Positions 1,831-22,308 of a stretch of DNA of 25,563 nucleotides are shown here, piece after piece. Each line of letters opens with the position of its first letter. The first letter of the stretch is position 1. A program made the position numbers and the translations under genes. Source of the stretch: a virus; IMG/VR virus record IMGVR_UViG_3300032676_000823, positions 1 to 25,563 of that record; one strand, 5' to 3'. The notes beneath the pieces were generated by a model. That model worked only from the letters and a program-made list of their open reading frames with translations. It was not told where the DNA came from and did not search any database.

Positions 1831-1853
1831 GCCGCCCTTCGGGGCGGTTTTTT
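1831..1853 (+). terminator. Rho-independent terminator after the capsid gene
   Basis: CCGCCC (1832-1837) pairs perfectly with GGGCGG (1842-1847) around a TTCG tetraloop closed by C-G, and six T residues follow (1848-1853). The UUCG loop is exceptionally stable in RNA. It ends the head operon. Confidence 0.92.
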
Positions 1854-1867
1854 AACAAGATTTAAGA

Positions 1868-1885
1868 AACCAAGTGATGCTGGTT
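1868..1885 (+). promoter_or_regulatory. Stem-loop with NGTGATGC loop, copy 1
   Basis: AACCA (1868-1872) pairs perfectly with TGGTT (1881-1885), leaving the 8-nt loop AGTGATGC. It lies 15 nt downstream of the capsid terminator, in the leader of the 1959 gene. Bases 1875-1880 of the loop (TGATGC) are complementary to GCATCA at 1923-1928, so a long-range loop pairing is possible. Three further hairpins in the window share the loop but not the stem sequence. The function is unknown; a translational or RNA-processing element is inferred. Confidence 0.5.
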
Positions 1886-1948
1886 ACTTTCTTTATGGGG
1901 GGTTGGAGGTCTAAAAAACCTCGCATCATCAATCCCCCACCCATCTAG
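1877..1948 (+). CDS. Possible leader micro-ORF (23 codons)
   Basis: The ATG in the loop of hairpin copy 1 opens 23 codons ending in TAG at 1946-1948. From the internal ATG at 1895 the peptide reads MGGWRSKKPRIINPPPI, a Gly/basic/Pro-rich composition. No Shine-Dalgarno precedes either ATG. The TAG overlaps the AGGGGA ribosome-binding site of the 1959 gene, so translation of this ORF could affect initiation there. It may equally be non-coding leader; coding status is unproven. Confidence 0.25.
   Translation: MLVTFFMGGWRSKKPRIINPPPI
1897..1938 (+). promoter_or_regulatory. Two-tier hairpin in the leader of the 1959 gene
   Basis: GGGGGGTT (1897-1904) pairs with AATCCCCC (1931-1938; seven Watson-Crick pairs and one G-T). 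Inside it GAGGT (1906-1910) pairs with ACCTC (1918-1922) around CTAAAAA. The unpaired side (1923-1930, GCATCATC) contains the complement of the loop of the hairpin at 1868-1885, so the two can in principle form a pseudoknotted leader. It ends 20 nt before the ATG at 1959. Confidence 0.5.
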
Positions 1949-1958
1949 GGGAAATATC

Positions 1959-2468
1959 ATGGAATTATTTATTGCAAACTGCTCTAAGCAAGATTTTTTG
2001 TTTACTTATATGTTGCCAGAGAATCAAAGACCTTTTTCTCATAAAATCAGGGCTGGAGCGCAAATGCGTTTGGTTCAAACCCAAGTAGAAGCTGACGTTA
2101 TTATTAAACAGCACCTTCCTTATGGGTTAATGGAAGCAACTCACGTCAAAAAAGGCTTTGGTGGGCTTTGCTATCGTTTTAGCAAGCCAATTAGCGTAGA
2201 AGCTATTGAAGCGGGTATTGGGCAATCGGATCAAGAAAATATTGACCGCGCCCAAGAAGCTAGAAGCATTACAGCGGCGGCTCAAGATCAGATCATTTCG
2301 CTTAAAGCCCAAGAAATGGGTATTAAGCAAAAAGGCGGTATTGAGTTTGAAGTAACTGAAGATAAAAAGAACGCCGCGGATCAAGAAGTAAAGTTTGACC
2401 AAAGAATTGAGGTCATACATGAAGGCGAAGGACAAAAAGGTCGTGGTAGACCAAGAAAGTCGGTATAA
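1959..2468 (+). CDS. Small protein with C-terminal AT-hook-like tail
   Basis: This 169-residue protein is not recognised by family. Residues 1-75 look globular (ELFIANCSKQDFLFTYMLPE, then a Gly/aromatic patch GFGGLCYRF). Residues 85-160 are highly charged and probably helical, with many Glu, Lys and Gln. The last 14 residues contain KGRGRPRKSV, which matches the GRP core flanked by basic residues of the AT-hook minor-groove DNA-binding motif. AGGGGA precedes the ATG by about 6 nt. The gene stands alone between two strong terminators and behind a structured leader, unlike the overlapping genes around it, so it may be expressed separately. A head-completion, DNA-binding or regulatory role are all possible; none is demonstrated. 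Confidence 0.7.
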   Translation: MELFIANCSKQDFLFTYMLPENQRPFSHKIRAGAQMRLVQTQVEADVIIKQHLPYGLMEATHVKKGFGGLCYRFSKPISVEAIEAGIGQSDQENIDRAQEARSITAAAQDQIISLKAQEMGIKQKGGIEFEVTEDKKNAADQEVKFDQRIEVIHEGEGQKGRGRPRKSV

Positions 2469-2471
2469 AAG

Positions 2472-2492
2472 AACTCCCTTCGGGGAGTTTTT
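2472..2492 (+). terminator. Rho-independent terminator after the 1959 gene
   Basis: AACTCCC (2472-2478) pairs with GGGAGTT (2483-2489) around a TTCG tetraloop, followed by further T residues. It is the same architecture as the terminator at 1831-1853 but with a different stem. It starts 3 nt after the stop codon. Confidence 0.88.
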
Positions 2493-2528
2493 GATTTAGA
2501 ATGTAAAAAATATTTCTAGGATAGTTCT

Positions 2529-2987
2529 ATGGCTGATCCAATCGTAAGTCCCCCTTCTTTAACAGGATTTATCGCGTGGGCGCAAGCCGTTATGGGGATA
2601 CCCACAACTGCTATGTCCCCTGATGATCCGGGCTGGAACTATGCCTATGTAATCGCTAAAGACATTGTTCCGACTGATTTTGCTAATACAGTAAAGGACA
2701 TTTACACTTTAACAGTCTATAACTGGGGCGGTAGCCAACTATTGCAGTTTCAGCAAGATTATCCCGGTCAAACCTATTTCACCACATTACGCAATCAATT
2801 TGGCATTAATAACTTTGTAGCTGGCGTCATAAATGCCGCTGGCGATGTAAGCACCCATGAAGCACTCTCTATAGGACACGGATTGCGCGACTTGAGCCTT
2901 TTAGACCTCCAACGCATTAAAGACCCTTACGGGCGCGTAGCGCTATCCTATATGCAACAACTTGGCACTCTTTGGGGGCTAACTTAA
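2529..2987 (+). CDS. Putative head-completion / connector protein
   Basis: This 152-residue soluble protein is not confidently assigned. It begins with MADPIVSPPSLTGFIAWAQAVMGIP and has a Trp/Asp/Pro-rich segment (SPDDPGWNYAYVIAKDIVP, about residues 30-48). This is followed by a largely helical remainder that includes TVYNWGGSQLLQF and LRDLSLLDLQRIKDPYGR. Its position directly after the capsid unit and before the neck and tail genes is where head-tail connector subunits are encoded, and its size fits. It overlaps the next gene by one base (TAATG), indicating coupled translation. The role is inferred from order and length. Confidence 0.6.
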   Translation: MADPIVSPPSLTGFIAWAQAVMGIPTTAMSPDDPGWNYAYVIAKDIVPTDFANTVKDIYTLTVYNWGGSQLLQFQQDYPGQTYFTTLRNQFGINNFVAGVINAAGDVSTHEALSIGHGLRDLSLLDLQRIKDPYGRVALSYMQQLGTLWGLT

Positions 2988-3499
2988 TGAGTTTAAAATT
3001 AGGTCTAGGCGTAATAGATGTTCCAGAACCTTATGGTGACCCTCCAAAATCCACTTATGAAGTAGGTATGGACTTGGAAAAACGCTACGGCATATTTACA
3101 ATGTTTTATAACTTCCGTGAAAAAGAAATATCCGAATTAATAGCTAAAGATGCCGCAATTGGCTTAGAAATGATGCTAAAAGGTGAATCGGTTGATATAG
3201 CAAGTGTATTCGCCGTAAGTTCCGAAGAAATTACCGACAAAATGCACGACTTTATTACCCAGCGCGAAGTAGAAAACATTGCCTCCACATACGGAGAACA
3301 AGGTATCCCTACTCAAGCCGCTATAGATGGTAAGAGTTTTAGATTTGATAAAGGGTTTACAGCTAAACGTCAAGTTAAGGGTTTAAAAGGTACAGGCACA
3401 GCATTTACTAAACGTAACCAAAAACGCGAAGCTGTTGCGCGCCCATCATTTATGTATTCTGGCGTATTTGAAGCTTCTTTAAAAGCGGAGATTAAATAA
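2987..3499 (+). CDS. Putative neck / head-tail joining protein
   Basis: I start this 170-residue protein at ATG 2987, which overlaps the upstream TAA (TAATG) and has GGGGG about 10 nt upstream; a longer TTG start at 2972 is in frame but unlikely. The N-terminal two thirds are acidic and helical. From about residue 120 the protein is basic (RFDKGFTAKRQVKGLKGTGTAFTKRNQKR). It then ends in RPSFMYSGVFEASLKAEIK, a C-terminal 'RPSF..(S/T)G.(F/Y)..S' pattern that I associate with small minor structural proteins of phage necks. It overlaps the next ATG by one base. The exact function is uncertain. Confidence 0.6.
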   Translation: MSLKLGLGVIDVPEPYGDPPKSTYEVGMDLEKRYGIFTMFYNFREKEISELIAKDAAIGLEMMLKGESVDIASVFAVSSEEITDKMHDFITQREVENIASTYGEQGIPTQAAIDGKSFRFDKGFTAKRQVKGLKGTGTAFTKRNQKREAVARPSFMYSGVFEASLKAEIK

Positions 3500-4500
3500 T
3501 GGCATCAGCCGTAGAAGCCGCGCAAGCAAAACCGCAATTAGGCGCTGGGTTAGCACAAGGCGTAGAAACGCTTTCGGGTAATGAACAAGTAACCTTTACG
3601 CTCTATGTTAAATTGGTTTTGCCTTTAGACGGATACGTATTTTGGGTAAATGCTAGTCTTTTGACTGATTCTGCCCTTTTTAACGCATCGCAATATAACA
3701 AATTACTTTATAACAATTACCCTGAAGGCGTACCTGCAAGACAATTAGTAGCTAGTGGCTCATTCCATTTTAGTAGTGATGTTCAAATGTTGGAAGATCG
3801 TCAAACTGTGTTTAACCACACTACTTTTACTTCTTTGGTAGAAATAGCCGATTTCAACTTAATTAACCCTCAGTTTCAATATATAGCAACTTATCAAGGG
3901 ATGCGATTTGCCTTTAATACTAGGGCAAACTTCTACAAACAAGCCGATTTATACCATTATCGTGGCGATGCGCTGTATTCAGTAATGAATACCCAAATCA
4001 TTGACACAATGACAGGATTTGATACTCAAAGCGTAATTGTGTCCAATAGCTTACCTATTTGGCTTAGTTTGAACCAATTTTTCCCTATGTACCCGTCTTA
4101 TTTGGTAGACCAAAACATTGTCCCAGCTTATGCGGCTGTCGATATTAATCCAAGCCTAACTACTGCATTGCAAGATTTTCCATTATTAGACCCCGATTCA
4201 AACCCTTTCCAATTGGTCAAAGATACTGTAAAAATAACTATGTATGGTATTCGTAACCATGAAGCACTTAATTTTGTGCAATATATACTTGATTACAGTC
4301 GAAATACCGACAATATTGGCTTAATGAATATGCCTGTAATGCAAGACGAAAAAATGACTCAATCTGAGCTAGGAATCATGGCGCAAAAGAAAACCATTAC
4401 TTTTGAAGTAAGTTATTACCAAACTACAGTAAATAATGTAGCAAGAGAATTAATAGAACACGCATTTATTTCCCTGACAGCAAGTACTATTCCAGTTTAA
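3499..4500 (+). CDS. Tail/neck structural protein sharing the sheath C-terminus
   Basis: This 333-residue protein with many aromatic residues and no membrane segment is typical of a virion component. It carries FWVNASLL (about residues 49-56) and a long beta-rich core with repeated Tyr/Phe. Its last residues are LTASTIPV, matching the sheath protein's last residues LTASNIPV (gene at 4882-6201) at seven of eight positions. A shared C-terminal arm suggests it contacts the same lattice, for example as a neck, tail-terminator or sheath-capping subunit. It is coupled to the upstream gene (TAATG) and followed by a 53-nt gap. No enzyme motif is visible. Confidence 0.6.
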   Translation: MASAVEAAQAKPQLGAGLAQGVETLSGNEQVTFTLYVKLVLPLDGYVFWVNASLLTDSALFNASQYNKLLYNNYPEGVPARQLVASGSFHFSSDVQMLEDRQTVFNHTTFTSLVEIADFNLINPQFQYIATYQGMRFAFNTRANFYKQADLYHYRGDALYSVMNTQIIDTMTGFDTQSVIVSNSLPIWLSLNQFFPMYPSYLVDQNIVPAYAAVDINPSLTTALQDFPLLDPDSNPFQLVKDTVKITMYGIRNHEALNFVQYILDYSRNTDNIGLMNMPVMQDEKMTQSELGIMAQKKTITFEVSYYQTTVNNVARELIEHAFISLTASTIPV

Positions 4501-4553
4501 AATTAAGTAGTAATATGTTGTTATCTAAAACAAGTGTATAAAAGGAGTTACAA

Positions 4554-4868
4554 ATGGCAATTACTTCAAACCCAGCAATCCAGAATGGCGCAGTTTCTAC
4601 TGGTCTAGGTATTCATTCTTTTTTAAATATTACTGATACAACAGTAATTAAAACTGTTCCGGGTCGCATCTGTACAGTTAATGTTCTTATCGCTGGAACA
4701 TCAGTCGGTACTGTATTTGACCATGCGGCAACATCAGGTCTTGTTACCGCAAATTTAGTAGCAGTAATTCCTGAAGCTGTTGGAACTTATGTAATTAATT
4801 TCCCATGCGCTGTAGGTATTGTTATTACGCCGCCACCAACTGGTACTGTTTCTGTTAGCTTCAATTAA
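4554..4868 (+). CDS. Small beta-rich virion protein
   Basis: This 104-residue protein is preceded by a strong AAAGGAG ribosome-binding site 8 nt before ATG. It consists of alternating Val/Thr/Ile strands (TVIKTVPGRICTVNVLIAG, residues about 26-44; LVAVIPEAVGTYVINFPCAVGIVI, about 69-92) ending in GTVSVSFN, consistent with a compact beta-sandwich. I recall similar short proteins in phage structural clusters, but without a firm role. It lies between the neck genes and the sheath, so a head decoration, tail or fibre-base accessory is plausible. The gap at 4501-4553 contains a weak TTGTT/AACAA hairpin (4518-4533) and no convincing promoter. Confidence 0.55.
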   Translation: MAITSNPAIQNGAVSTGLGIHSFLNITDTTVIKTVPGRICTVNVLIAGTSVGTVFDHAATSGLVTANLVAVIPEAVGTYVINFPCAVGIVITPPPTGTVSVSFN

Positions 4869-4881
4869 TTAGGGGGCAATT

Positions 4882-6201
4882 ATGCCAAATATTGTAAATG
4901 TCGTTGTCACTCAACAAGTGGCAAGCGCACCTAATCAGCTACAGCAGACAGGGGCGTTTGTATCACAAGGTGGTACAACTTTAGCCGCTGGAACTACTCA
5001 ACTGTTAACTCAGTTAAGTGATTTAACCAGCATCCTTAGACCTGCAACTGCAATTACTTCTCTTACTTGGGCAACCAATGTGGTAACTGTTACAACCACT
5101 ACTGCTCATGGTATTCCAAGCGGTGATACAGTTCAAATTGTTATTGCTGGATGTACACCAACGGGATATAACGGCACTTTTGCTGGTACTTCTACTGGCA
5201 CAAATACAGTTACTTATCCATTATTGACAAATCCGGGATCTGAAACAATTGCGGGAACTTTGCAACTTAATTCTACTTTAGAGTTAACAGCAATGGGCAA
5301 TACTTTCTTTGCTCAAGGTTCTACTGTTTCTGTATTTGTTTTGGAATTAGGCGTAAATACTGTAACTAATGGAATTACTGAATTAGAAACTTACATTACA
5401 ACTAATGTTGGTCATCCACCAACTTCTTCAACACCACAGTTTTATAGCTATTTATTGCCTATTGAATGGGATGTAGTTGGTGCAGAAACAATGGCTGGCT
5501 TATATGATGGTACAACTGCACAAGTTTACTTTTATGTATCTAGTACATTAGCTACTTATTCTGGTTGGGAAGGTAAAAAATCAGCATTTGTTACTTTACC
5601 AAGTCCAAATGCGCCAGCACAAGAATTTAGTGCCGCCGCTATTTTTTGGTCATCTTTGGCATATAATCCAAGCGTAAGTAATTTAGCTCATCCTTTTGAA
5701 TATACTTATGTTTATTCTGTAACTCCTTATAGCACTTTAACCAATACTCAACAAACTCAATTGTTGGCGGCTGGTGTGAACTGGGTAGGTACAGGCGCAC
5801 AAGGCGGTATTTCAAATACGCTGATTGAAGGCGGTACTTTTATGGATTTAAACCCATTTAATTACTGGTATTGTGTGGATTGGCTTTCTATTAATGTGGC
5901 TCAAGCTTTATCTGCGGCAATTATTAATGGTTCTAATTTGCCAACAAATCCTTTGTATTACAACCAAGCTGGTATTAATACCTTGCAAAAAGTAGCACAA
6001 GCAACAGTAAATAATGGTATTTCGTTTGGATTGATTCTTTCACCTGCTTCTGTAGTAGCAACTCCGTTTACTACTTATGTAGCACAGCATCCCGGTGATT
6101 ATGCAACTGGTACTTATAACGGCTTGAGCCTGACATTTGTTCCATTGCGTGGATTCAGTTCTATTACGATCTACTTAACTGCAAGCAACATTCCAGTTTA
6201 A
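4882..6201 (+). CDS. Tail sheath protein (DUF3383-like) with an inserted beta domain
   Basis: This 439-residue protein forms the contractile outer tail tube. It begins with a strand-rich segment (NIVNVVVTQQ) typical of sheath N-termini. Its C-terminal third contains the sheath-like core with QAGINTLQ, ISFGLILSPASV and a final beta strand ending LTASNIPV, as used for inter-subunit strand exchange. Residues about 58-128 appear to be an extra domain: TTAHGIPSGDTVQIVIAG, then GYNGTF and a Thr-rich strand. This resembles the beta module annotated in phages as 'FCCH-like', and a similar module lies in the gpJ-like protein at 11768-13165. Adjacent tail tube and chaperone genes support the call. GGGGG lies 5-10 nt before the ATG. 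Confidence 0.75.
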   Translation: MPNIVNVVVTQQVASAPNQLQQTGAFVSQGGTTLAAGTTQLLTQLSDLTSILRPATAITSLTWATNVVTVTTTTAHGIPSGDTVQIVIAGCTPTGYNGTFAGTSTGTNTVTYPLLTNPGSETIAGTLQLNSTLELTAMGNTFFAQGSTVSVFVLELGVNTVTNGITELETYITTNVGHPPTSSTPQFYSYLLPIEWDVVGAETMAGLYDGTTAQVYFYVSSTLATYSGWEGKKSAFVTLPSPNAPAQEFSAAAIFWSSLAYNPSVSNLAHPFEYTYVYSVTPYSTLTNTQQTQLLAAGVNWVGTGAQGGISNTLIEGGTFMDLNPFNYWYCVDWLSINVAQALSAAIINGSNLPTNPLYYNQAGINTLQKVAQATVNNGISFGLILSPASVVATPFTTYVAQHPGDYATGTYNGLSLTFVPLRGFSSITIYLTASNIPV

Positions 6202-6212
6202 GGGGAAAATAA

Positions 6213-6656
6213 ATGGCAAATCCACAAATCCAACAAGGTACATTAAATCGGCTACTGGCTTCTGTAGTCTATGCCGATTTTCAGCAACTTAATGTAACAT
6301 CAGGCTATTTGTCTAAAGAGGCAATTAGTTTGGCTTTTGATGGTGACACATCAATGCTTATACCAACTCTAACTGGTGCAGTTACCAGTCCAGAGCCGTA
6401 TATTTTTGGTACTGTTACTATTCACTTACTCAGAACGCAAGCTCTCGGTAATGCTTATAAAACACAAATTGAAACAAATACAACAATGGGTTCTGTAACT
6501 GTTTATCCAGATACCCAAGTATTGTCTGCATTTCAATTAAATAATTGTGTTTTGATGAGCATTAATGAAGCAACTTTTGACGGCAATCAAGCTGGATTAG
6601 TTGTTCGCTTGCGTGGTGTTTATAGTGTTAATGCTTCTTTATTTTCCGCATCCTAA
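6213..6656 (+). CDS. Tail tube protein
   Basis: This 147-residue protein directly follows the sheath with an AGGGGAAA ribosome-binding site. It starts NPQIQQGTLNRLLASVVYADF and continues as alternating beta strands (ISLAFDGDTSMLIPTLTGAV, FGTVTIHLLRTQALGNAY) with a single likely helix at about residues 70-85. It ends with a strand rich in Val (GLVVRLRGVYSV). Size, beta-barrel pattern and the order sheath, tube, chaperone, tape measure match contractile tails. It should form the inner hexameric tube around the tape measure. Confidence 0.78.
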   Translation: MANPQIQQGTLNRLLASVVYADFQQLNVTSGYLSKEAISLAFDGDTSMLIPTLTGAVTSPEPYIFGTVTIHLLRTQALGNAYKTQIETNTTMGSVTVYPDTQVLSAFQLNNCVLMSINEATFDGNQAGLVVRLRGVYSVNASLFSAS

Positions 6657-6669
6657 ATGAAAGAATAAA

Positions 6670-7254
6670 TTGAAAATTGATCGTAATCTGAACCTTGTGA
6701 TGCAGGTACAGACTGAAAGTTATGGAAAAGTTTATATTCATTCCACATCAATCAGTCGTTCTGTTTTTGAGCAATTTTATTTAGTTATAGGAAAAGTGTT
6801 TAGCCAATGCTTTGATGGCATAAGCGAAGCACATTTAGCTTTAACTGCACCACAACTTGCTTACCCCGCCCTAAAGTCTATTGCTATACAAGCAGGAACT
6901 TGGGAAGGGGTAGGTGGAGTTAAGTTTGGATTAGTAAACGAGATTATCCGTTTAACTAATATTGTAATAAATACTGAAGGTGGATGGGAAACCATTACTT
7001 TTGATACAGCAATAAAGCGTGGAATTCTGGATGATGATGAAGAACATGAAATATTAAGTTCGTTGATTTTTTTTACAGCAATCTCCAAGGTTGCACCGAG
7101 GGATTTGAAAAATTCCTTCTTGGAGATGGTGGGTGCGTTGCGAAACTGGGAACTTACATCATTAGACTCTACGGAATACAGGAATGGTTTGCCGATATTG
7201 AGCAAGAAAGAAGGTACTGGCAAGAAGGTGAAGGAATCATTAATAGTGTCTTAG
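6670..7254 (+). CDS. Tail assembly chaperone, short (unshifted) product
   Basis: This 194-residue product is read without frameshifting; it acts like lambda gpG, binding the tape measure during tube assembly. The N-terminal part (KIDRNLNLVMQVQTESYGKVYIHSTSISRSVFEQFY) resembles tail-chaperone N-termini that I know from contractile phages. LIFFT at residues 133-137 marks the slippery site. The start is uncertain: TTG 6670 keeps the conserved-looking N-terminus but has only a weak AAAGAA upstream, while ATG 6700 sits in a hairpin loop (6692-6707). A three-codon ORF (6657-6668) separates it from the tube gene. The position between the tube and tape measure genes is diagnostic. Confidence 0.75.
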   Translation: MKIDRNLNLVMQVQTESYGKVYIHSTSISRSVFEQFYLVIGKVFSQCFDGISEAHLALTAPQLAYPALKSIAIQAGTWEGVGGVKFGLVNEIIRLTNIVINTEGGWETITFDTAIKRGILDDDEEHEILSSLIFFTAISKVAPRDLKNSFLEMVGALRNWELTSLDSTEYRNGLPILSKKEGTGKKVKESLIVS

Positions 7255-7376
7255 AATATATAACCTATATGAATTTCGGTGAATTTATGAAAGAAATTGG
7301 CTTGCAATGGGAAGATACAGCCGATTTTAAACAGCGATATTTAATTAGGGCGATTAAGTCTAAAGCGTTGTTTTAA
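6670..7376 (+). CDS. Tail assembly chaperone, long product by -1 frameshift (join 6670..7074, 7074..7376)
   Basis: The -1 frame is open from 7050 to the TAA at 7374-7376 and has no plausible start of its own, yet reads like real protein: IIRLYGIQEWFADIEQERRYW, then GEFMKEIGLQWEDTADF and a final RYLIRAIKSKALF. Slippage on T_TTT_TTT at 7068-7074 would fuse 135 residues of the short product to 100 residues of this frame, giving a 235-residue protein equivalent to lambda gpGT. Without it, 122 nt between the short product's stop and the next RBS region would be unexplained coding-like sequence. It is annotated separately because both products are expected at a fixed ratio. Confidence 0.8.
6692..6707 (+). 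promoter_or_regulatory. Stem-loop with NGTGATGC loop, copy 2
   Basis: ACCT (6692-6695) pairs with AGGT (6704-6707) around the loop TGTGATGC. It lies at the 5' end of the chaperone gene; the loop ATG (6700) is in frame and is an alternative start codon. This is the shortest stem of the four copies and overlaps coding sequence if TTG 6670 is the start, so it is the least certain. Confidence 0.35.
7068..7137 (+). promoter_or_regulatory. Programmed -1 ribosomal frameshift signal
   Basis: The heptamer T_TTT_TTT (7068-7074) is in the correct phase (Ile-Phe-Phe). After a 6-nt spacer, ATCTCCAAG (7081-7089) pairs perfectly with CTTGGAGAT (7119-7127), extended by a G-T pair (7090/7118). Loop bases GCACC (7093-7097) can pair with GGTGC (7132-7136), giving a possible pseudoknot. 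Heptamer, spacer and stem match established -1 frameshift rules; no other in-phase canonical heptamer lies in the overlap 7050-7254. Confidence 0.85.
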
Positions 7377-7392
7377 TTACTAGGAATATAAA

Positions 7393-9512: not shown

Positions 9513-9515
9513 ATT

Positions 9516-10792: not shown

Positions 10793-11448
10793 GTTTAGGT
10801 CAAAAAATCCCTCTTGCTCAGTCAATAAGTGACTATGTACAGCAAGCAATAGAATTAAATCAAATGTCGAATGGGCTTCAATTGCCATGTCGTGTTGTTG
10901 CTGTAGATGGCGCAATCGTAACTGTTAATTTTGAAATTGACAATAATGGGGAATATACATTCCCACAAGTTAAAATGCCTATCGCCCAAAGCATTTATGT
11001 GCGCTTACCTGTACAAGTAGGCGATTTAGGAATTTGCGTTTCAGCAGATGTTCGTATAGGCGGGATAACAGGACTTGGTACTAAAGGCGCATTAGCTCCT
11101 TTAGTAAAGCCATTTAATCTTAGCGCATTAATTTTTGTTCCAGTAGGGGCAACAGATTGGGAAGCGGTTGATCCAAATGCGGTTAATATTAATGCTCCAA
11201 ATGGCGCAGTAATCAGAGATACAGGAAACAATTGCGTTATTACTTTAACTCCTACTGGGGTAAATGTAACCATTGGAAGCACTAGCTTTCTTGTGGAAAG
11301 TTCTGGTGTTACAGTTAATGGTAAATTTACAGTAAATGGCAATGTTGAAACTACTGGAACTTTGAAAAATAATGGCGTAAGCGTTGGTAGCACTCATAAA
11401 CATTCAGGTGTTCAAACAGGTATAAGCAATACAGGGAATCCAGTATGA
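10789..11448 (+). CDS. Baseplate spike protein (gpV / Gp138-like)
   Basis: This 219-residue trimeric membrane-piercing spike has an N-terminal OB-fold-like part: CRVVAVDGAIVTVNFEI, then MPIAQSIYVRLPVQVGDLGICV (about residues 62-83), close in style to the Gp138 N-terminal domain. From about residue 125 it becomes a beta-helical needle of short repeats (PNAVNINAPNGAVIRDTGNNCVITLTPTG, ESSGVTVNGKFTVNG, NVETTGTLKNNGVSVG). The tip ends in THKHSG and TGNPV. The HxH pair (His203, His205) matches the iron-binding tip motif of P2 gpV-type spikes. Confidence 0.85.
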   Translation: MSLGQKIPLAQSISDYVQQAIELNQMSNGLQLPCRVVAVDGAIVTVNFEIDNNGEYTFPQVKMPIAQSIYVRLPVQVGDLGICVSADVRIGGITGLGTKGALAPLVKPFNLSALIFVPVGATDWEAVDPNAVNINAPNGAVIRDTGNNCVITLTPTGVNVTIGSTSFLVESSGVTVNGKFTVNGNVETTGTLKNNGVSVGSTHKHSGVQTGISNTGNPV

Positions 11449-11768: not shown

Positions 11769-13165
11769 TGGCTCAAATAACGACTGCTGGAGCAATACCA
11801 GCTTTACCAACAGATCTATTAAATGCTGAAATTGCGGCGGCTACAGCTTTAGCACCCGGTTTAACAGCTAATCTTCCGGGTTCTCTTGTAGAAGATATGG
11901 CTTCTACAGCCGCTGGTGCGGTAGTAGTTCAAGATCAAGCTTTTGTAGACTTAGTTAATTCTATTAGTCCTGCAACTGCTAACCCTTCAATTCTTTATCA
12001 ATTGGGGCAAGTCTATGGTGTCGAACAAGGTCAAGGTTCTAATACTTCCGTTTATGTTATTTTTACAGGTCTTGCTGGTTTTGTTATTCCTGTTGGATTT
12101 ACTGTATCTGATGGTACTTACCAATATACAGTTCAGGATGGCGGAATTATTGCTACTTCTGGACAAACTTCTCCACTTTATTGTTTAGCAACAGTTCAAG
12201 GTTCTTGGGCTGTTCCATCTGGAACTGTTACGCAAATTATTACTTCTGTACCAGCAGGGTTTACCCTTACTGTTACTAATCCTGATGATGGATTGCCCGG
12301 TCTTACAGCACAAACAATTGCTTCATATCAAGCTCAAGTAATGCAAGCAGGAATGGTTACTGCTCAAGGTGTCCCTACTTTTATTAAAGCTCAACTGCAA
12401 AATGTTATAGGTGTACAAGCTAGGTTAATTTCTATTCGTCTGATAGCTACAAATCAATGGGAAATCATTGTAGGTGGTGGCGATCCTTATGAAGTAGGTA
12501 ACGCCATATTTAATAGCGTTCCTGATATTTCTAATTTGGTAGGCTCTACTCTTGCTGTTACTGCTATTACTACAGCAAATCCGGGCGTTGTTACTACTGA
12601 TTTAAATCATGGATATGCAACTGGACAAGTAATTACCATAGCTGGTGTAGATCCAGTTTGGTTTAATAATAACTACACCATTACTGTTATTGATGAAAAA
12701 TCCTTTAGTTTAGGAGTAACAACTGTAGGTCATGCTTATACAAGTGGCGGTGTTGTAACGCCTAATTTACGCAATATAACTGTATCTATTGATGATTATC
12801 CAGATATTTATAGCATTATTTTTGTAAATCCACCTTCTCAAACTGTTAATATAACAATTACTTGGAATACTATTTCTACCAATTTAGTATCTCCAACTGC
12901 TGTAGCTCAACTAACAACCCCAGCTATTGTTGATTACATTAATAGTATTCCTGTTGGTCAACCAATTAATACTTATGAATTGCAAGATGCCTTTCAAAAT
13001 GCAGTAGAACCCATTATTTCTGCAAGTCAAGTATCTAAAATTGACTATGTAGTGGCAATTAACGGAATAGATACTGCTCCAACTTCTGGTACTTTGCTTA
13101 TTTATGGTGATCCTGAAAGCTATTTTTCTACTAATGCTTCATTGGTATCGGTAGTACAAGGCTAG
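11768..13165 (+). CDS. Baseplate wedge protein J-like with inserted beta domain
   Basis: This 465-residue protein belongs to the baseplate_J (P2 gpJ / T4 gp6-like) group. Early sequence includes LPGSLVEDMASTAAGAVVVQDQAFVDLVNSISP (about 36-68), then an IPVGFTVSDGTYQYTVQDGG strand pair. The core motif GLPGLTAQTIASYQAQVMQ (about 175-193) and the GVQARLISI segment follow. Residues about 262-332 look like an insertion: NHGYATGQVITIAG, then NNNYTITVIDEKSFSL and HAYTSGGVVT, similar to the extra module in the sheath gene. The C-terminus (LTTPAIVDYINSIPVGQPINTYELQDAF) is again typical of gpJ. These subunits form the ring that opens on contraction. Confidence 0.8.
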   Translation: MAQITTAGAIPALPTDLLNAEIAAATALAPGLTANLPGSLVEDMASTAAGAVVVQDQAFVDLVNSISPATANPSILYQLGQVYGVEQGQGSNTSVYVIFTGLAGFVIPVGFTVSDGTYQYTVQDGGIIATSGQTSPLYCLATVQGSWAVPSGTVTQIITSVPAGFTLTVTNPDDGLPGLTAQTIASYQAQVMQAGMVTAQGVPTFIKAQLQNVIGVQARLISIRLIATNQWEIIVGGGDPYEVGNAIFNSVPDISNLVGSTLAVTAITTANPGVVTTDLNHGYATGQVITIAGVDPVWFNNNYTITVIDEKSFSLGVTTVGHAYTSGGVVTPNLRNITVSIDDYPDIYSIIFVNPPSQTVNITITWNTISTNLVSPTAVAQLTTPAIVDYINSIPVGQPINTYELQDAFQNAVEPIISASQVSKIDYVVAINGIDTAPTSGTLLIYGDPESYFSTNASLVSVVQG

Positions 13166-13166
13166 T

Positions 13167-13868: not shown

Positions 13869-13878
13869 AGGATAATTT

Positions 13879-16224: not shown

Positions 16225-16226
16225 AA

Positions 16227-16868
16227 ATGACAAACCAACTAACAATAGAATCAGTATTTCCCACCAATGTTTATAGCATTGATAAACCTGAATTTTTGGA
16301 TGTTGCACGAACGGTAGCGGTAGAATTTTTAGATAAACGACATAAAGAAACAACATTAAATGAAGCTTTCCCATGCTACATGACAGAATCACTTAATGTA
16401 GACCCAAGAATGTTACCCTTTGCAAACTATGTAGCCCAAACAGCTTGGAATATTTTGCAAGAACAGGGTTATGAAGTTACCAATATGACTACTTATTTTG
16501 AATCAATGTGGTGTCAAGAACATCATAAGGGTTCTTTAATGGAACAGCACATACACGGAAATGGGAATCAAATTGTTGGTTTTTACTTTTTAGATGTTCC
16601 AGAAGACGGTTCTAAAGTTATTTTTTATGATCCAAAGCATAGTAAAGTTCAAATTAATTTACCAGAAATAAACGCTACTCAATCAACACCAGCAAGTAAT
16701 ATTATTAATTACGAAGCAAAGCCAGGTACTTTAATGTTTACAAATGCTTGGTTGCCACATTCATTTACTAAAAATATGTCTGATAGTCCAATGAAATTTA
16801 TTCATTTTAATATAAATGTCAAATTAGCAGATACATATTTTTGCCCATCGAAAGTAGAAGTGATATGA
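16227..16868 (+). CDS. 2-oxoglutarate/Fe(II)-dependent oxygenase-like protein
   Basis: This 213-residue protein is of the kind annotated as 2OG-Fe(II) oxygenase family 5 in aquatic phages. The core has MWCQEHHKGSLMEQHIHGNGNQIVGFYFLDVP (residues 94-125), with His108 and His110 in the position of the metal-binding H-x-D/H. KPGTLMFTNAWLPHSF follows, with His178 as the distal ligand. The residue that normally binds 2-oxoglutarate (Arg) appears as Lys190 in SPMKFIHFNI. The substrate is unknown; the gene is sandwiched between adhesin and fibre genes, so a virion protein is possible. It has no clear Shine-Dalgarno and overlaps the next gene (ATGA). Confidence 0.7.
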   Translation: MTNQLTIESVFPTNVYSIDKPEFLDVARTVAVEFLDKRHKETTLNEAFPCYMTESLNVDPRMLPFANYVAQTAWNILQEQGYEVTNMTTYFESMWCQEHHKGSLMEQHIHGNGNQIVGFYFLDVPEDGSKVIFYDPKHSKVQINLPEINATQSTPASNIINYEAKPGTLMFTNAWLPHSFTKNMSDSPMKFIHFNINVKLADTYFCPSKVEVI

Positions 16869-17095
16869 AATACAAAATCCGTTTTAATAAAACTCGTGGT
16901 CAAGAAGGTCGTGGAACTGTTGACCATGTTTGGCGTGTGTTTGAAGGTGACAAAGAATACTTAGTTAAACATTTTCAACTTAATGTGCCTTCTTTTAGCG
17001 AAATTGACGAAAGCGGTGTTGATTGGAATCTTTGTTGTAATGGTGTTTTAAGTTTTGACAAAGAAACATCGACAGCAATATTTAACAAAAAGTAA
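16865..17095 (+). CDS. Small conserved-looking protein of aquatic phages
   Basis: This 76-residue protein is read from ATG 16865, which overlaps the upstream TGA (ATGA); a longer TTG start at 16841 is unlikely. The sequence KYKIRFNKTRGQEGRGTVDHVWRVFEGDKEYL is highly patterned, and the C-terminal half contains VDWNLCCNGVLSFDKETSTAIF. I recall similar short proteins in cyanophages and other marine T4-like phages, usually without a function. It has no membrane segment. Function unknown. Confidence 0.65.
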   Translation: MKYKIRFNKTRGQEGRGTVDHVWRVFEGDKEYLVKHFQLNVPSFSEIDESGVDWNLCCNGVLSFDKETSTAIFNKK

Positions 17096-17172
17096 CTATT
17101 AAACTAAGTAGTTTTTAGATACAATATGTAAAATCGCTTGGTGATGCAAGCAGATCAGATCAAGGAAAAGTT
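17096..17172 (+). other. Intergenic region before the second fibre gene
   Basis: This 77-nt gap is one of few in the window. It contains a 6-bp inverted repeat with 2-nt spacing (AAACTA / TAGTTT, 17101-17114) followed by T residues, perhaps a weak terminator. A TACAAT hexamer (17120-17125) resembles a -10 box, but no good -35 is seen. Hairpin copy 3 (17136-17151) and AAGGAAAAG before the fibre ATG complete it. Confidence 0.4.
17136..17151 (+). promoter_or_regulatory. Stem-loop with NGTGATGC loop, copy 3
   Basis: GCTT (17136-17139) pairs with AAGC (17148-17151) around GGTGATGC; the first and last loop bases can pair as well, giving a 5-bp stem. It ends 21 nt before the fibre ATG. GCATCACC at 17215-17222, inside the fibre gene, is the exact complement of the 8-nt loop. 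Confidence 0.5.
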
Positions 17173-17176
17173 ATGA
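17144..17176 (+). CDS. Possible leader peptide ORF (10 codons)
   Basis: The ATG in the loop of hairpin copy 3 opens the peptide MQADQIKEKL and stops at TGA 17174-17176, overlapping the ATG of the fibre gene (17173-17175). This arrangement would couple its translation to the fibre gene. It has no Shine-Dalgarno of its own, and the AAGGAAAAG that serves the fibre gene lies within it, so coding status is only a suggestion. Confidence 0.25.
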   Translation: MQADQIKEKL

Positions 17177-18333
17177 CTGTTCAGCTTTATGCCAATAATG
17201 CAAAAACAACGCTGGCATCACCAATTAATGCTACTCAGACTACCATTACAGTAGCGCCGGGTACTGGTTCGCTTTTTCCAAACCCTAGTTCTGGTCAAGC
17301 ATTTAAAGTAACTTTAGTTAGTGCTTCTTCTGTTACTGTTTATGAAATTTGCCTTTGTACCGCAAGATCAACTGATACTTTAACAGTAGTAAGAGCGCAA
17401 GAAGGAACTTCTGGTACTCCATTTTTATTAAATGATGTTGTCGGTAATTTTGATACTGCTGGTGTAATGGATGGTTTAGTTCAATCTGTTCAGCTTCAAA
17501 ATCAATATTATTTGTTTGCTGTGGCTAGTGGAACAGCAAATGCTTTAACGGCAACCATTCCATCAACTCTTACTGCTTTAACAGATGGAATGTCTATTGT
17601 TATTAAATCTGGATATGCAAATACTGGAGCAACTACTTTAAATATAACTTTAGGTTCTACAGCAACGGGAGCTTTGCCTATTGTTTCTGGTAATAATTCA
17701 GCACTTGTAGGAAATGAAATTCCTTCTGCTGGATACCCAATTACTTTGTCTTATAGTTCTACTTACAACGCATGGGTAATTACCAATGCAAATGTTAATT
17801 TAAATGCGTATGCTTTAATTAATAGCCAAACATTTACTGGAACTCCTAGAGTACCTACAGCACCATTTAATGACAACAGCACCATTATTGCTAGTACAAC
17901 TTGGGTTCAAGGGCAATTAGCCAATTACGCACCTATTTTTAGCCCTGCTTTAACGGGAATTCCAACAGCACCAACAGCCTCAAGCGGAACTAACACTACT
18001 CAAATAGCTACTACGGCTTTTGTACAAAACCAATTGCAAATTGTAAAAGGTTTAGGTTTTGGTGGGACTACTTGGAATGATGTAACAGGCTCAAGAGGAA
18101 ATGGAGTTCAATACACAAACAGTTATTCCTATCCAATTGCTGTTTCTGCTACTGGTGGTGCTGGTGGGTACTCTACTTTGCATGGATATGTTAACGGAAT
18201 TCTTATTTCAGAATTTAATTGGCAATTTAATGGAAATGGCGCACATGGCGGATGTTTTATGATTGTCCCGCCGGGAGCTACTTATCAAATAAATGGCGAT
18301 AGCGGTATTCAAAGATGGACTGAACTTTATTAA
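17173..18333 (+). CDS. Tail fibre protein with paralogous attachment domain
   Basis: In this 386-residue protein, residues 1-100 form an attachment-type domain (NNAKTTLASPINATQTTITV, then EICLCTARSTDTLTVVRAQEGT). The first 100 residues of the collagen-like fibre at 18638 are clearly paralogous to it. The middle contains beta repeats of fibre type, including FTGTPRVPTAPFNDNSTIIASTTWVQ and LTGIPTAPTASSGTNTTQIATTAFVQ (about 225-290). The C-terminal about 90 residues, with GGTTWNDVTGSRGNGVQYTN and a glycine-rich GGAGGYSTLHG, form a likely receptor-binding tip. AAGG precedes the ATG. Confidence 0.72.
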   Translation: MTVQLYANNAKTTLASPINATQTTITVAPGTGSLFPNPSSGQAFKVTLVSASSVTVYEICLCTARSTDTLTVVRAQEGTSGTPFLLNDVVGNFDTAGVMDGLVQSVQLQNQYYLFAVASGTANALTATIPSTLTALTDGMSIVIKSGYANTGATTLNITLGSTATGALPIVSGNNSALVGNEIPSAGYPITLSYSSTYNAWVITNANVNLNAYALINSQTFTGTPRVPTAPFNDNSTIIASTTWVQGQLANYAPIFSPALTGIPTAPTASSGTNTTQIATTAFVQNQLQIVKGLGFGGTTWNDVTGSRGNGVQYTNSYSYPIAVSATGGAGGYSTLHGYVNGILISEFNWQFNGNGAHGGCFMIVPPGATYQINGDSGIQRWTELY

Positions 18334-18342
18334 GGAAATATT

Positions 18343-18615
18343 ATGACTTACAACTATGGTAGCCCCATTACAGGCACTCTTACTGGAACTACTTTAGAGG
18401 TATTAGTTCCTAATTTAGTTTACCCAGCAACTATTGTTTTGAATTCTGCCGCTGTAGGTAGAGCAATTCAACTATCTTTAGATAGTGGAGCTACTTTTCT
18501 TACAGCAGTTACTCCTACTGGAACAGCTACAGGTCAAATTTATTATGTCTTAACCTTTCCTGTAACAATGCTTAAATTTACTGGTGTAGCCGCTGATACT
18601 TACGCAATTCTTTAA
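18343..18615 (+). CDS. Small beta-rich fibre-associated protein
   Basis: This 90-residue protein lies between two fibre genes. It is strand-rich, with VPNLVYPATIVLN, AIQLSLDSGATFLTAV and GQIYYVLTFPVTMLKFTGV, and has no cysteines, charged helices or membrane segment. Its leader, TAAGGAAATATTATGAC, is repeated exactly before the next gene, suggesting the two starts are derived from the same cassette. It is probably a minor tail or fibre component; no motif identifies it. Confidence 0.55.
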   Translation: MTYNYGSPITGTLTGTTLEVLVPNLVYPATIVLNSAAVGRAIQLSLDSGATFLTAVTPTGTATGQIYYVLTFPVTMLKFTGVAADTYAIL

Positions 18616-18637
18616 TAGCGTTGAATAAGGAAATATT

Positions 18638-21600
18638 ATGACAATGCTATTATTTGCAAATCAAGCACAAACAACTCTTGCCGCACCAATAACAAGTGTA
18701 GATACAACTTTAATTGTTGCAAGTGGTACTGGTCAATATTTTCCTCAACCAGTAGGCGATGAAATATTTAAAGTTACTTTAATTAATTCAACCAATAATT
18801 TACAAACTGAAATTTGCAATTGCACAGCTAGAACAGGTGATGTTTTAACAGTTCAAAGGGGTCAAGAAGGAACTGTTGCTCAAGCATGGAAATTTAGTGA
18901 CTTTGTTACAAATTTAGTTACTGCTGGAACATTGCAATCTTTTAGCCAAGTTTCAGGATGGAGTGGTTACTCTGGAATTAGCGGGTATTCAGGTATTTCT
19001 GGTTATTCAGGTTTCTCTGGCTTTTCTGGAATTTCTGGGTATTCTGGATCAGGTGTATCTGGATTTTCAGGGGCTTCTGGAATAAGCGGATTTTCTGGTT
19101 ATAGCGGATTTTCGGGATATTCTGGAATAAGCGGATTTTCTGGAAAATCTGGATTTAGCGGAATTTCAGGTTTTAGCGGATTTAGCGGCATATCAGGATA
19201 TTCAGGTAAATCAGGATTTAGTGGAATTTCTGGCTATTCAGGATTTAGTGGAATTTCAGGTTATTCAGGATTTAGTGGAATTTCAGGTTATTCAGGAAGT
19301 GGTATTAGTGGATATTCAGGTTTTTCTGGATATTCTGGTTTACCCGGTGCGGCAATTAATGTTATTGGAACTGTTCCAACAGCCGCAGATTTACCACCAA
19401 CAGCAAATATAAATGATGCGTATGTTACTGCTGACACAGGAAACCTATGGGTTTATACAGTATCAGGATGGATTGATATTGGACAGTTTGTTGGTGATAG
19501 TGGCTATAGCGGTTACTCTGGTTCTGGTGTTTCTGGGTATTCTGGGTATTCTGGTGATTCAGGTATATCAGGATTTAGCGGCAATTCAGGCATAAGTGGT
19601 TACTCAGGTGATTCTGGAATTTCTGGTTACTCTGGTTATAGTGGCATATCAGGTTTTTCAGGTGATTCTGGTATTTCAGGCTTTTCAGGTGATTCTGGTA
19701 TTTCAGGCTTTTCAGGTGATTCTGGTATTTCAGGCTATAGCGGTGATAGCGGTATTTCTGGTTACTCAGGTGATTCTGGAATAAGTGGGTTCTCAGGAGA
19801 TAGCGGTATCTCTGGTTTTAGCGGAGATTCTGGAATTTCAGGATTTAGTGGTGATAGCGGAATAAGTGGCTATTCAGGTTATTCTGGAGATTCAGGAATT
19901 TCTGGCTATTCAGGTGATAGCGGAATTTCGGGTTATAGCGGTGATTCAGGGCTAAGTGGTTATTCTGGCGATTCTGGTATTAGTGGTTATTCTGGATCAG
20001 GAATTTCTGGTTATTCTGGAGATAGCGGTATTAGTGGTTATTCTGGAGATAGCGGTATATCTGGCTATTCAGGTGACAGCGGTATATCAGGGTATTCTGG
20101 CGATAGCGGAATCTCAGGATTTAGTGGCGATTCAGGAATATCGGGGTATAGTGGCGATTCTGGTATTTCTGGTTGGTCTGGTAATTCAGGAATTTCAGGA
20201 TATTCAGGAATTTCAGGTTTTAGCGGAGATAGTGGTATCTCAGGATATTCAGGCGACAGCGGTATATCTGGTTTTAGTGGCGACAGCGGTATATCTGGAT
20301 TTTCTGGTGATTCAGGAATATCAGGTTACAGCGGAGATTCTGGTATTTCTGGCTACAGCGGGGTTAGCGGTTATTCTGGAGATTCTGGTATTAGTGGTTT
20401 TAGCGGCGAATCAGGATTTAGCGGTATTTCTGGCTATAGCGGATTCTCTGGAGAATCTGGTTACTCTGGATTTTCAGGTATATCAGGCTATTCAGGCTTT
20501 TCTGGTGAGTCAGGTTTCTCAGGTATCTCTGGTTACTCTGGCTTTTCTGGAGAGTCAGGCTATAGCGGCATTAGTGGCTATTCGGGCTTTAGCGGAATTT
20601 CTGGCTATTCTGGTATCTCAGGATTTAGTGGCATCTCTGGCTACTCAGGTGATTCAGGAATATCTGGTTTTAGTGGCGACAGCGGTATATCTGGGTATTC
20701 TGGATCAGGCATATCAGGCTACAGCGGTTCTGGTATTTCTGGTTATAGCGGATTACCGGGTGCATCCATTGTTATTAAAGGGACTGTACCTAACGAAACT
20801 TTTTTACCACCAACAGGCAATCAATTTGATGATGCTTATGTAACCGCAGACACAGGCGATTTATGGGTTTGGTCAGGTACAACATGGAATAATATTGGAC
20901 AGTTTGTTGGAACAAGCGGTTACAGCGGATTTTCTGGTTATTCAGGATCAGGAATAAGCGGTTTTTCAGGTTACTCAGGTTCTGGTATTTCTGGGTACTC
21001 TGGTTCTGGTATTTCTGGATATTCAGGCGATTCAGGAATATCTGGCTACTCAGGTGATTCAGGAATATCTGGTTATTCTGGAAGTGGTGTAAGTGGTTAT
21101 AGCGGATATTCTGGCATTTCAGGTTACTCTGGTATTTCAGGATTTTCAGGTGTATCAGGCTATTCTGGAGATTCTGGTATTTCTGGCTATAGTGGAATTT
21201 CGGGATATTCTGGTTCTGGAATTAGTGGGTACTCAGGATCAGGAATAAGCGGATTTTCAGGGACTAGCGGATTTTCGGGGTATTCTGGAATTAGCGGGTA
21301 CCGCGGATTTTCAGGCGATAGCGGTATTTCTGGATTTAGCGGTTTTTCTGGAATAAGTGGATATTCTGGCTTTGGTATTTCAGGTTACTCTGGATTTTCA
21401 GGAATTAGTGGCTATAGCGGTTCAGGCGTTTCTGGTTTTTCTGGATACAGCGGTTCTGGAATAAGTGGATTTAGTGGATACTCTGGATCTGGAATATCAG
21501 GTTTTTCAGGTTACTCTGGAAGTGGTATTTCAGGATTTAGCGGCTATAGCGGTATTAATGGCGCAACAGGAACATCAGGATTTAGCGGTTATTCAGGAAA

Positions 21601-22285
21601 TAACGGAGCTACTGGCACTTCTGGATATAGTGGCTATAGCGGAACAAATGGTTCAACAGGAACTAGCGGTTTTTCTGGATATAGCGGAACTAATGGCAGT
21701 AATGGGGCAACAGGTACTTCAGGTTATTCAGGATATTCAGGTACTAACGGGACAAATGGTGGGCAAGGGACTTCAGGTTATAGCGGTTACTCAGGTGCTA
21801 CAGGTGCTACAGGAGCAACTGGAGCAACAGGTGGTACAGGAGCAACAGGCACATCTGGTTACTCAGGATACAGCGGAGCAATTACTACTGGTTCTAATGC
21901 TCAAGCTAACAGTTTAGGAGTTGGTACTGCGGCTTCTGGAACAACAGGTGAAATTCGTGCCACAAACAATGTGACCGCTTATTATTCTGATGATCGTTTA
22001 AAAACAAAACTTGGTAATATTGAAAATGCTCTTGAAAAATTGCGTACTTTAAATGGTTTTTATTATGAAGCCAATGAAGTTGCTCAAGCTTTGGGTTATG
22101 ATGTTAAGCGTGAAGTTGGCGTATCTGCTCAACAAGTTCAAGCGGTATTATCTGAAATTGTTGTACCAGCACCAATTGATGAGCAATATTGGACAGTTAG
22201 ATATGAAAGACTTTCTGCTTTGATTATTGAAGCTATTAAAGAATTGGCTGACCAAGTGGATGAAATAAAGAAAAAACTTAATTAA
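18638..22285 (+). CDS. Giant collagen-like Gly-X-Ser tail fibre with S74 chaperone domain
   Basis: In this 1215-residue protein, residues 1-100 are the attachment domain shared with the fibre at 17173. Residues about 107-1085 are Gly-X-Ser triplets with X mostly Tyr, Phe, Ile or Asp. Two near-identical globular inserts break them (about 235-286 and 706-758; each has AYVTADTG, then LWV and IGQFVG). Towards the end the triplets become GAT, GTN and GTS types. Residues about 1108-1215 match the peptidase S74 intramolecular chaperone: YSDDRLK contains Ser1117 and Lys1122, the spacing of the Ser/Lys pair that self-cleaves after trimer folding. A C-terminal coiled coil (IIEAIKELADQVDEIKKKL) follows. 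It should fold as a long collagen-like trimeric fibre. Confidence 0.85.
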   Translation: MTMLLFANQAQTTLAAPITSVDTTLIVASGTGQYFPQPVGDEIFKVTLINSTNNLQTEICNCTARTGDVLTVQRGQEGTVAQAWKFSDFVTNLVTAGTLQSFSQVSGWSGYSGISGYSGISGYSGFSGFSGISGYSGSGVSGFSGASGISGFSGYSGFSGYSGISGFSGKSGFSGISGFSGFSGISGYSGKSGFSGISGYSGFSGISGYSGFSGISGYSGSGISGYSGFSGYSGLPGAAINVIGTVPTAADLPPTANINDAYVTADTGNLWVYTVSGWIDIGQFVGDSGYSGYSGSGVSGYSGYSGDSGISGFSGNSGISGYSGDSGISGYSGYSGISGFSGDSGISGFSGDSGISGFSGDSGISGYSGDSGISGYSGDSGISGFSGDSGISGFSGDSGISGFSGDSGISGYSGYSGDSGISGYSGDSGISGYSGDSGLSGYSGDSGISGYSGSGISGYSGDSGISGYSGDSGISGYSGDSGISGYSGDSGISGFSGDSGISGYSGDSGISGWSGNSGISGYSGISGFSGDSGISGYSGDSGISGFSGDSGISGFSGDSGISGYSGDSGISGYSGVSGYSGDSGISGFSGESGFSGISGYSGFSGESGYSGFSGISGYSGFSGESGFSGISGYSGFSGESGYSGISGYSGFSGISGYSGISGFSGISGYSGDSGISGFSGDSGISGYSGSGISGYSGSGISGYSGLPGASIVIKGTVPNETFLPPTGNQFDDAYVTADTGDLWVWSGTTWNNIGQFVGTSGYSGFSGYSGSGISGFSGYSGSGISGYSGSGISGYSGDSGISGYSGDSGISGYSGSGVSGYSGYSGISGYSGISGFSGVSGYSGDSGISGYSGISGYSGSGISGYSGSGISGFSGTSGFSGYSGISGYRGFSGDSGISGFSGFSGISGYSGFGISGYSGFSGISGYSGSGVSGFSGYSGSGISGFSGYSGSGISGFSGYSGSGISGFSGYSGINGATGTSGFSGYSGNNGATGTSGYSGYSGTNGSTGTSGFSGYSGTNGSNGATGTSGYSGYSGTNGTNGGQGTSGYSGYSGATGATGATGATGGTGATGTSGYSGYSGAITTGSNAQANSLGVGTAASGTTGEIRATNNVTAYYSDDRLKTKLGNIENALEKLRTLNGFYYEANEVAQALGYDVKREVGVSAQQVQAVLSEIVVPAPIDEQYWTVRYERLSALIIEAIKELADQVDEIKKKLN
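18953..21880 (+). repeat. Long 9-nt-periodic repeat tract encoding Gly-X-Ser triplets
   Basis: About 2.9 kb of GGN-NNN-(TCN/AGY) units, interrupted at about 19340-19497 and 20753-20912 by the inserts. Serine codons switch between TCT, TCA and AGC/AGT, and glycine codons among GGT, GGA and GGC, so the protein repeats are much more regular than the DNA. Confidence 0.9.
19661..19735 (+). repeat. 27-nt perfect tandem repeat inside the fibre gene
   Basis: A nine-codon unit encoding GDSGISGFS occurs as two perfect copies (19661-19687, 19688-19714), plus 21 nt of a third (19715-19735). It is one of the few places where DNA as well as protein repeats exactly, which points to recent duplication. Confidence 0.85.
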
Positions 22286-22290
22286 CTAAA

Positions 22291-22308
22291 GGATTAGTGA
22301 TGCAATCC
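22291..22308 (+). promoter_or_regulatory. Stem-loop with NGTGATGC loop, copy 4, over a start codon
   Basis: GGATT (22291-22295) pairs perfectly with AATCC (22304-22308) around AGTGATGC. The GGA of the Shine-Dalgarno (AAAGGA) is in the stem, and the ATG of the glycosyltransferase gene (22300-22302) is in the loop. This can mask the ribosome-binding site, and is the clearest case of translational control among the four hairpins. Confidence 0.55.

Follow-up and report, generated by a model that had tools for sequence, protein, structure and literature searches.

The heptamer GTGATGC lies on the plus strand at five positions of the phage DNA analyzed here (527, 1874, 6697, 17141 and 22297), and the locus raises the question of whether the copies held in hairpin loops represent one RNA element and what such an element would do for the phage. 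The window is the whole 25563-base IMG/VR record (25.6 kb), and two further copies are present on its minus strand (822 and 17215). A sequence-only reading had reported four plus-strand copies in 8-nt loops (NGTGATGC) closed by arms that differ from copy to copy, and the arms are as it had quoted them. The fifth plus-strand copy, which it had placed at 525-531, does exist, but occupies positions 527-533. The heptamer by itself is mildly enriched in the window (7 copies versus 2.1 expected; 3 of 100 shuffled sequences reached as many), and it is the most recurrent 7-mer inside 8-nt hairpin loops.

Relatives of the phage were identified through its major capsid protein, for which 116 IMG/VR relatives were found and 80 (87-100% identical) were retained:
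784-1809: major capsid gene (phrog_6671; also weakly similar to phrog_264, major head protein).
Capsid relatives of approximately 50% identity occur in phages of Yersinia, Klebsiella, Pantoea, Escherichia, Actinobacillus and Shewanella, and others in two metagenome-assembled genomes (MAGs) labelled Oxalobacteraceae and Mucilaginibacter. The latter, L254 (CAISKH010000033.1), contains a related phage with Shine-Dalgarno-based starts, so a proteobacterial host seems likelier and the Mucilaginibacter label may result from wrong binning. The window also encodes a tail sheath, baseplate proteins, a collagen-like fibre and glycosyltransferases. Region 18638-22285 encodes a 1215-aa collagen-like fibre with SGYSG repeats and a C-terminal Peptidase_S74 chaperone domain, and region 22297-23544 a glycosyltransferase 2 domain fused to a methyltransferase domain.

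In the window and the 80 relatives (1.24 Mb), a stem of 4 or more Watson-Crick pairs in the exact NGTGATGC geometry encloses 78 of 248 plus-strand copies of GTGATGC and none of 84 minus-strand copies; the stemmed copies comprise 23 distinct hairpin sequences. Hairpin scores were reached by 43 of 106 sense copies and by 1 of 53 antisense copies in 18 long related genomes (0.81 Mb). Counting copies with and without stems against controls had been proposed as a check, and stems proved far commoner around GTGATGC: 28% of its sense copies in the long genomes reached a stem score of 4.5, versus a mean of 1.2% for 400 control 7-mers of similar abundance (7.8% for the next best). The recurrence of stemmed GTGATGC is not due to chance, since it far exceeds that of antisense copies and of the 400 control 7-mers; many of the counted copies are orthologues, and the counts are therefore not independent events. 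The placement at gene starts that had been remarked on in the window also holds in the relatives, where 37 of 43 hairpin copies are so located versus 11 of 63 stemless ones, with orthologous sites counted repeatedly.

The copy at 1874 is part of a larger structure. In the relatives, the 1874-type hairpin (P1) is always followed by a second hairpin with GCATCAT on its 3′ side, and this heptamer is complementary to the P1 loop (including one G-U pair). The following elements were distinguished:
1860-1958, plus strand: whole leader RNA, about 100 nt, reaching as far as the start codon of the 1959 gene (99.6 bits and E 2e-23 with covariance model R1; pair counts from 51 leaders).
1868-1885, plus strand: hairpin P1, AACCA / A-GTGATGC / TGGTT, whose inner four pairs change on both sides and are 100% paired in 51 sequences.
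1874-1880, plus strand: 5′ strand of the pseudoknot, GTGATGC, pairing with 1923-1929 (7 pairs, 100% paired; two covary).
1896-1905, plus strand: 5′ strand of P2, TGGGGGGTTG, pairing with 1930-1939 (both-side changes in 9 of 10 P2 pairs).
1906-1922, plus strand: hairpin P3, GAGGT-CTAAAAA-ACCTC, with 5 pairs, all showing both-side changes, and an A-rich loop; it abuts P2 on the 5′ side.
1923-1929, plus strand: 3′ strand of the pseudoknot, GCATCAT, a 7-nt bulge between P3 and P2 with compensated variants.
1930-1939, plus strand: 3′ strand of P2, CAATCCCCCA (pair counts from 51 leaders).
1940-1951, plus strand: CCC-ATCTA-GGGG, candidate small hairpin (3 bp) holding the Shine-Dalgarno sequence GGGGA; CCC...GGG is kept in most leaders.
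1959-2468, plus strand: gene of the phrog_6737 family (169 aa), next after the capsid gene and predicted cis target of the leader.
The hairpin noticed at 1874 is thus real, but it is only P1 of a leader of about 100 nt, its loop being pseudoknotted with GCATCAT at 1923-1929.

The fold was examined in a structure-fitted alignment of 51 leaders (P1, 4 bp; pseudoknot, 7 bp; P2, 10 bp; P3, 5 bp). Standard pairs occupy 99.7% of the pair cells (80.4% in shuffled alignments), 252 cells are changed on both sides (59 in shuffled alignments), with such changes in 20 of the 26 pairs, and the covariation score is 0.571, compared with 0.175 for shuffled and at most 0.122 for slid versions; none of 500 shuffles matched the leader on any pairing measure. 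The alignment was fitted to a structure without the pseudoknot and so favours P2 and P3, but this bias is not the source of the support for P1 and the pseudoknot, because both lie at fixed offsets from the two heptamers. RNAalifold recovered P1, P2 and P3 from the same alignment. The pseudoknot covaries in three lineages; five of its seven pairs are invariant, so its covariation rests on two pairs. Its loop/partner variants are GTCAAGC/GCTTGAT (L035, L037, L472 and L480), GTCATGC/GCATGAT (L047) and GTGAAGC/GCTTCAT (L078), and every loop variant among the matches listed carries a compensated partner, though rarer variants may exist. In pairwise comparison the pseudoknot strands average 98% identity, versus 54-61% for P1, P2 and P3; the linker and the P3 loop vary, and on the 5′ side no unpaired nucleotide separates P2 from P3. 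The window leader has a modestly low folding energy (z -1.7), in an energy model that cannot include the pseudoknot. By covariation, P1, P2, P3 and the pseudoknot are established as parts of a well-supported predicted fold, in agreement with the earlier suggestion of a structured RNA with compensating stem changes. That suggestion had also included the absence of any described element with such a loop, and searches of Rfam 15 gave no relevant match up to E 1 for the window or up to E 3 for five relatives (L253, L079, L040, L061 and L078). The leader appears to represent a new, previously undescribed RNA family of freshwater phages, whose function we infer. A leader peptide starting at an ATG in P2 was considered and rejected (its frame and stop are not conserved, and 11 of 53 leaders lack the ATG), as were leader-pattern matches in L101, L126 and L130, which have the wrong context and no significant model match.

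The other three hairpins of the window are as follows:
6688-6711, plus strand: hairpin CTGAACCT / T-GTGATGC / AGGTACAG in codons 7-14 of the gene at the tail-chaperone position (6670-7254), with 7 of 8 pairs formed.
17120-17125, plus strand: TACAAT, a -10-like box ahead of the fibre gene that does not vary among 11 aligned fibre leaders.
17136-17151, plus strand: hairpin GCTT / G-GTGATGC / AAGC in the fibre leader, shortly before the start codon at 17173.
22291-22308, plus strand: hairpin GGATT / A-GTGATGC / AATCC, over the ribosome-binding site (RBS) and ATG (22300) of the glycosyltransferase gene.
All four copies had been taken for one element. Model R1 gives 15.7, 15.6 and 12.7 bits at 6683, 17127 and 22283, compared with 99.6 at 1860, and scores of 13-16 against about 100 bits mean that the three other hairpins are not members of the leader family. 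The sequence-only reading therefore understated the 1874 site and overstated the four copies as a single element. Its claim of compensating stems applies to the leader and the tail-chaperone hairpin, which covary, and to the fibre hairpin, which shows pair-preserving changes, but not to the glycosyltransferase hairpin, for which no covariation was found within its clade.

For the tail-chaperone and glycosyltransferase hairpins, a quite plausible explanation, though one that we do not favour, is that they are by-products of coding and RBS sequence and have the loop in common with the leader by chance. The LNL-VM-QVQ codons of the tail chaperone are naturally palindromic, the glycosyltransferase stem consists of the Shine-Dalgarno sequence and codons 2-3, without covariation, and other fibre copies of GTGATGC encode a VLRDAN-like peptide; the hairpins within those codons (G007 at 27680, G008 at 12862, G012 at 40338 and G017 at 11412) are probably coding-driven. 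Against this stand the sense-strand bias of the stems (43 of 106 versus 1 of 53) and the behaviour of synonymous partners in the tail chaperone, where CTG..CAG alternates with TTG..CAA and CTT..CAG with TTA..CAA (Fisher p 0.0003, 0.003 and 0.004, uncorrected for relatedness). In 19 distinct relatives its 8-bp stem is 91.4% paired, a value reached by none of 500 shuffles, with 21 double-changed cells versus 7.4 in shuffles. Watson-Crick-only scoring had made this hairpin look like a coding coincidence, a verdict reversed by G-U scoring and the synonymous-partner test. The hairpin is lost in clades in which LVIPIE replaces LVMQVQ. Synonymous covariation supports it as a separate, simpler conserved structure.

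The predicted fibre hairpin, likewise a separate and simpler conserved structure, is backed by conservation with base-pair-preserving changes. It is kept behind TACAAT in 11 of 12 distinct promoter-bearing fibre leaders, and its 4-bp stem stays paired where AA has become GG and the outer C-G pair U-A; the loop GTAATGC occurs once. In L311 the hairpin is cleanly deleted; the deletion (L311:521-601), perhaps between AAAATT repeats, leaves the -10 box and the RBS. Pairing of the fibre loop with GCATCAC at 17215, which lies within coding sequence 74 nt further on, would form another pseudoknot but is unsupported, as the partner is absent in L317, L327 and L335 and is not adjusted to the GTAATGC loop of L326. 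The glycosyltransferase stem is invariant in one clade, where the Shine-Dalgarno sequence, the start and codons 2-3 are conserved, with its closing pair broken in L428, and its putative function is unproven. Genome G001 has the same glycosyltransferase RBS/start stretch, after which the gene sequence diverges downstream of MQS. Further copies of GTGATGC occur in G016, among them a NGTGATGC hairpin (TGGG/CCCA, approximately at 4886 of the oriented sequence) directly after a promoter-like pair TTTACA-16-TACACT and 36 nt before an 89-aa gene (MSWEAIISG).

The leader is present in 76 of 76 capsid relatives whose contig reaches the 1959-type gene and in the two MAG contigs, and absent from six distant isolates. 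Comparison indicates a single copy per phage in fixed attachment: each long genome has one leader, which always precedes the 1959-type gene and stays with it when an extra gene follows the capsid gene (L052, L067, L071-L076 and L079). The distance from the pseudoknot to the start codon is constant (about 25-33 nt), with CCC directly after P2 and then, past a short loop, GGGA ahead of the start codon. Upstream lies a further element:
1832-1853, plus strand: terminator-like hairpin CCGCCC-TTCG-GGGCGG with six T, after the major capsid gene (read directly; unlisted by the consensus scan).
Similar hairpins precede most related leaders and are absent in L052/L067. In approximately 29 of 46 distinct upstream regions, an extended -10-like TGNTANNNT begins 18-20 nt ahead of the loop, a spacing that would place the RNA 5′ end near P1. 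The window itself has no good -10 sequence upstream of P1 (AAGATT), so its leader may lie inside a read-through transcript.

We consider it rather probable that the 1874 hairpin is P1 of a cis-acting pseudoknotted leader that serves as a translational operator, probably feedback-regulating the 1959 gene and the tail genes behind it. The leader would form the 5′ end of an mRNA beginning with the 1959 gene, where the 8-nt loop of P1 would pair with the 7-nt 3′ bulge of P2/P3 in a compact loop-to-bulge pseudoknot, and this fold would end directly at the Shine-Dalgarno sequence. Its short constant distance to the start codon points to translation, and the leader would set the translation of the 1959 gene and of the downstream tail genes, probably by feedback. 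The pseudoknot is more nearly invariant than pairing requires, whereas the stems are free to drift, which makes a protein its probable reader. A candidate is the 1959 product, through the AT-hook-like basic tail (GRGRPRK; window 2432-2468) at its C terminus. AT-hooks usually bind DNA. The match is under the Pfam cut-off (14.0 versus 17.4 bits), and the AlphaFold model shows a confident core with a disordered tail; structural comparison yielded no informative relatives, the fold matching nothing of known function. Most members of the leader-bearing clade have a GRGRPRK-type tail and the six distant homologues, which lack the leader, do not, a co-occurrence confounded by phylogeny. Autogenous translational repression, as in T4 gene 32, is preferred but unproven, and would be the weakest step of the mechanism.

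The leader pseudoknot of gene 32 in T4, T2 and RB69 is an autogenous translational operator, which is situated 67 nt ahead of the start and acts together with an A+U-rich stretch for cooperative binding (PMC3014915). The leader analyzed here likewise places a pseudoknot, recognized by covariation, before the RBS of a phage gene, and its candidate regulator, as judged from sequence, is also a phage protein with nucleic-acid-binding character. It differs in that its pseudoknot joins a hairpin loop to a bulge in the next hairpin and abuts the Shine-Dalgarno sequence in a capsid/tail operon, with no A+U-rich stretch between pseudoknot and RBS and no Rfam relation. The Escherichia coli rpsO (S15) operator, which controls translation of the encoded protein, is also a leader pseudoknot at the RBS, but has a different topology and gene; an S15 match in one relative lies outside the leader and is sub-threshold (21 bits versus a 39.5 cut-off).

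Among other readings of the leader, a 5′-end stabilizer or nuclease barrier, in which the pseudoknot would shield the tail-operon mRNA from decay without a ligand, is unlikely. P1 at the presumed RNA 5′ end and the rigid compact fold would suit it, as would the hairpins directly after the -10 box of the fibre gene and of one other small gene, but it leaves both the 98% identity of the pseudoknot and the fixed start-codon distance unexplained. Operon-start hairpins that share a loop but not their stems are reminiscent of boxB sites, and the leader has a terminator-like hairpin before it and a long tail operon behind it, which is what a put- or nut-like cis-acting antitermination RNA modifying RNA polymerase after the capsid terminator might look like. 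This is still less probable, as the leader is downstream of the terminator to be passed and such an RNA would need no constant short distance to one start codon; a literature search on put/boxB antitermination gave nothing useful.

A metabolite riboswitch could also be compact, pseudoknotted and upstream of an RBS. With a variable linker and P3 loop, and with P2 and P3 abutting on the 5′ side, neither a small-molecule pocket nor a catalytic core would have much space; there are no conserved unpaired nucleotides to form a pocket, the target is a capsid-neighbour gene rather than a metabolic one and Rfam gives no match, which makes a riboswitch very improbable. In the pistol ribozyme (env25 sequence), the partner of the P1 loop lies on the 5′ side of the P2/P3 junction. 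A self-cleaving ribozyme of the pistol-like or pseudoknotted hammerhead kind is scarcely credible: pistol also pairs its P1 loop with the P2/P3 junction (PMC6154101) and UGAUG is present in the leader loop, but here the partner occupies the opposite strand of the junction, 3′ of P3, no catalytic nucleotides are conserved outside the stems, no Rfam match was obtained and, unlike in the hammerhead core (CUGANGA and GAAA), the loop is paired and varies (GTCAAGC, GTCATGC, GTGAAGC), CUGANGA being destroyed in GTCAAGC and GTGAAGC.

The tail-chaperone and fibre hairpins carry the loop of the leader and may share its reader. Common control of late genes by the hairpins is possible, and we tentatively propose that a single trans-acting reader, be it a phage protein or the leader GCAUCAU by loop kissing, recognizes the NGUGAUGC loop in several late mRNAs and coordinates late expression; these may include the head gene leader, the tail chaperone, the fibre, the glycosyltransferase and, in one phage, a small gene. 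In L047/G015 the leader loop and the tail-chaperone loop are both GTCATGC, the latter on a 9-bp stem, which is suggestive of a shared reader, in one phage and as the only matched change among 19 distinct tail-chaperone windows. The tail-chaperone loop GTGGTGC of the L071 group still pairs with GCATCAT through G-U, and GTAATGC of L046 does not. The fibre and tail-chaperone hairpins resemble lambda boxB and the T4 gene 43 operator, short conserved-loop hairpins that are read by proteins, but those differ in loop size or sequence. The lambda boxB loop has 5 nt, and an 8-nt loop does not fit this pentaloop.

A 2010 review of post-transcriptional control in T4 could point to just one example of a viral pseudoknot in translational autoregulation, the T4-type gene 32 structure (PMC3014915). 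If the function proposed here is true, the leader would be a second, unrelated and deeply covarying phage leader pseudoknot, located in a structural operon of freshwater phages that occur in many metagenomes. Its covariance model can be used to look for further members, and its natural compensated variants offer a ready test system for the balance of phage head and tail proteins.
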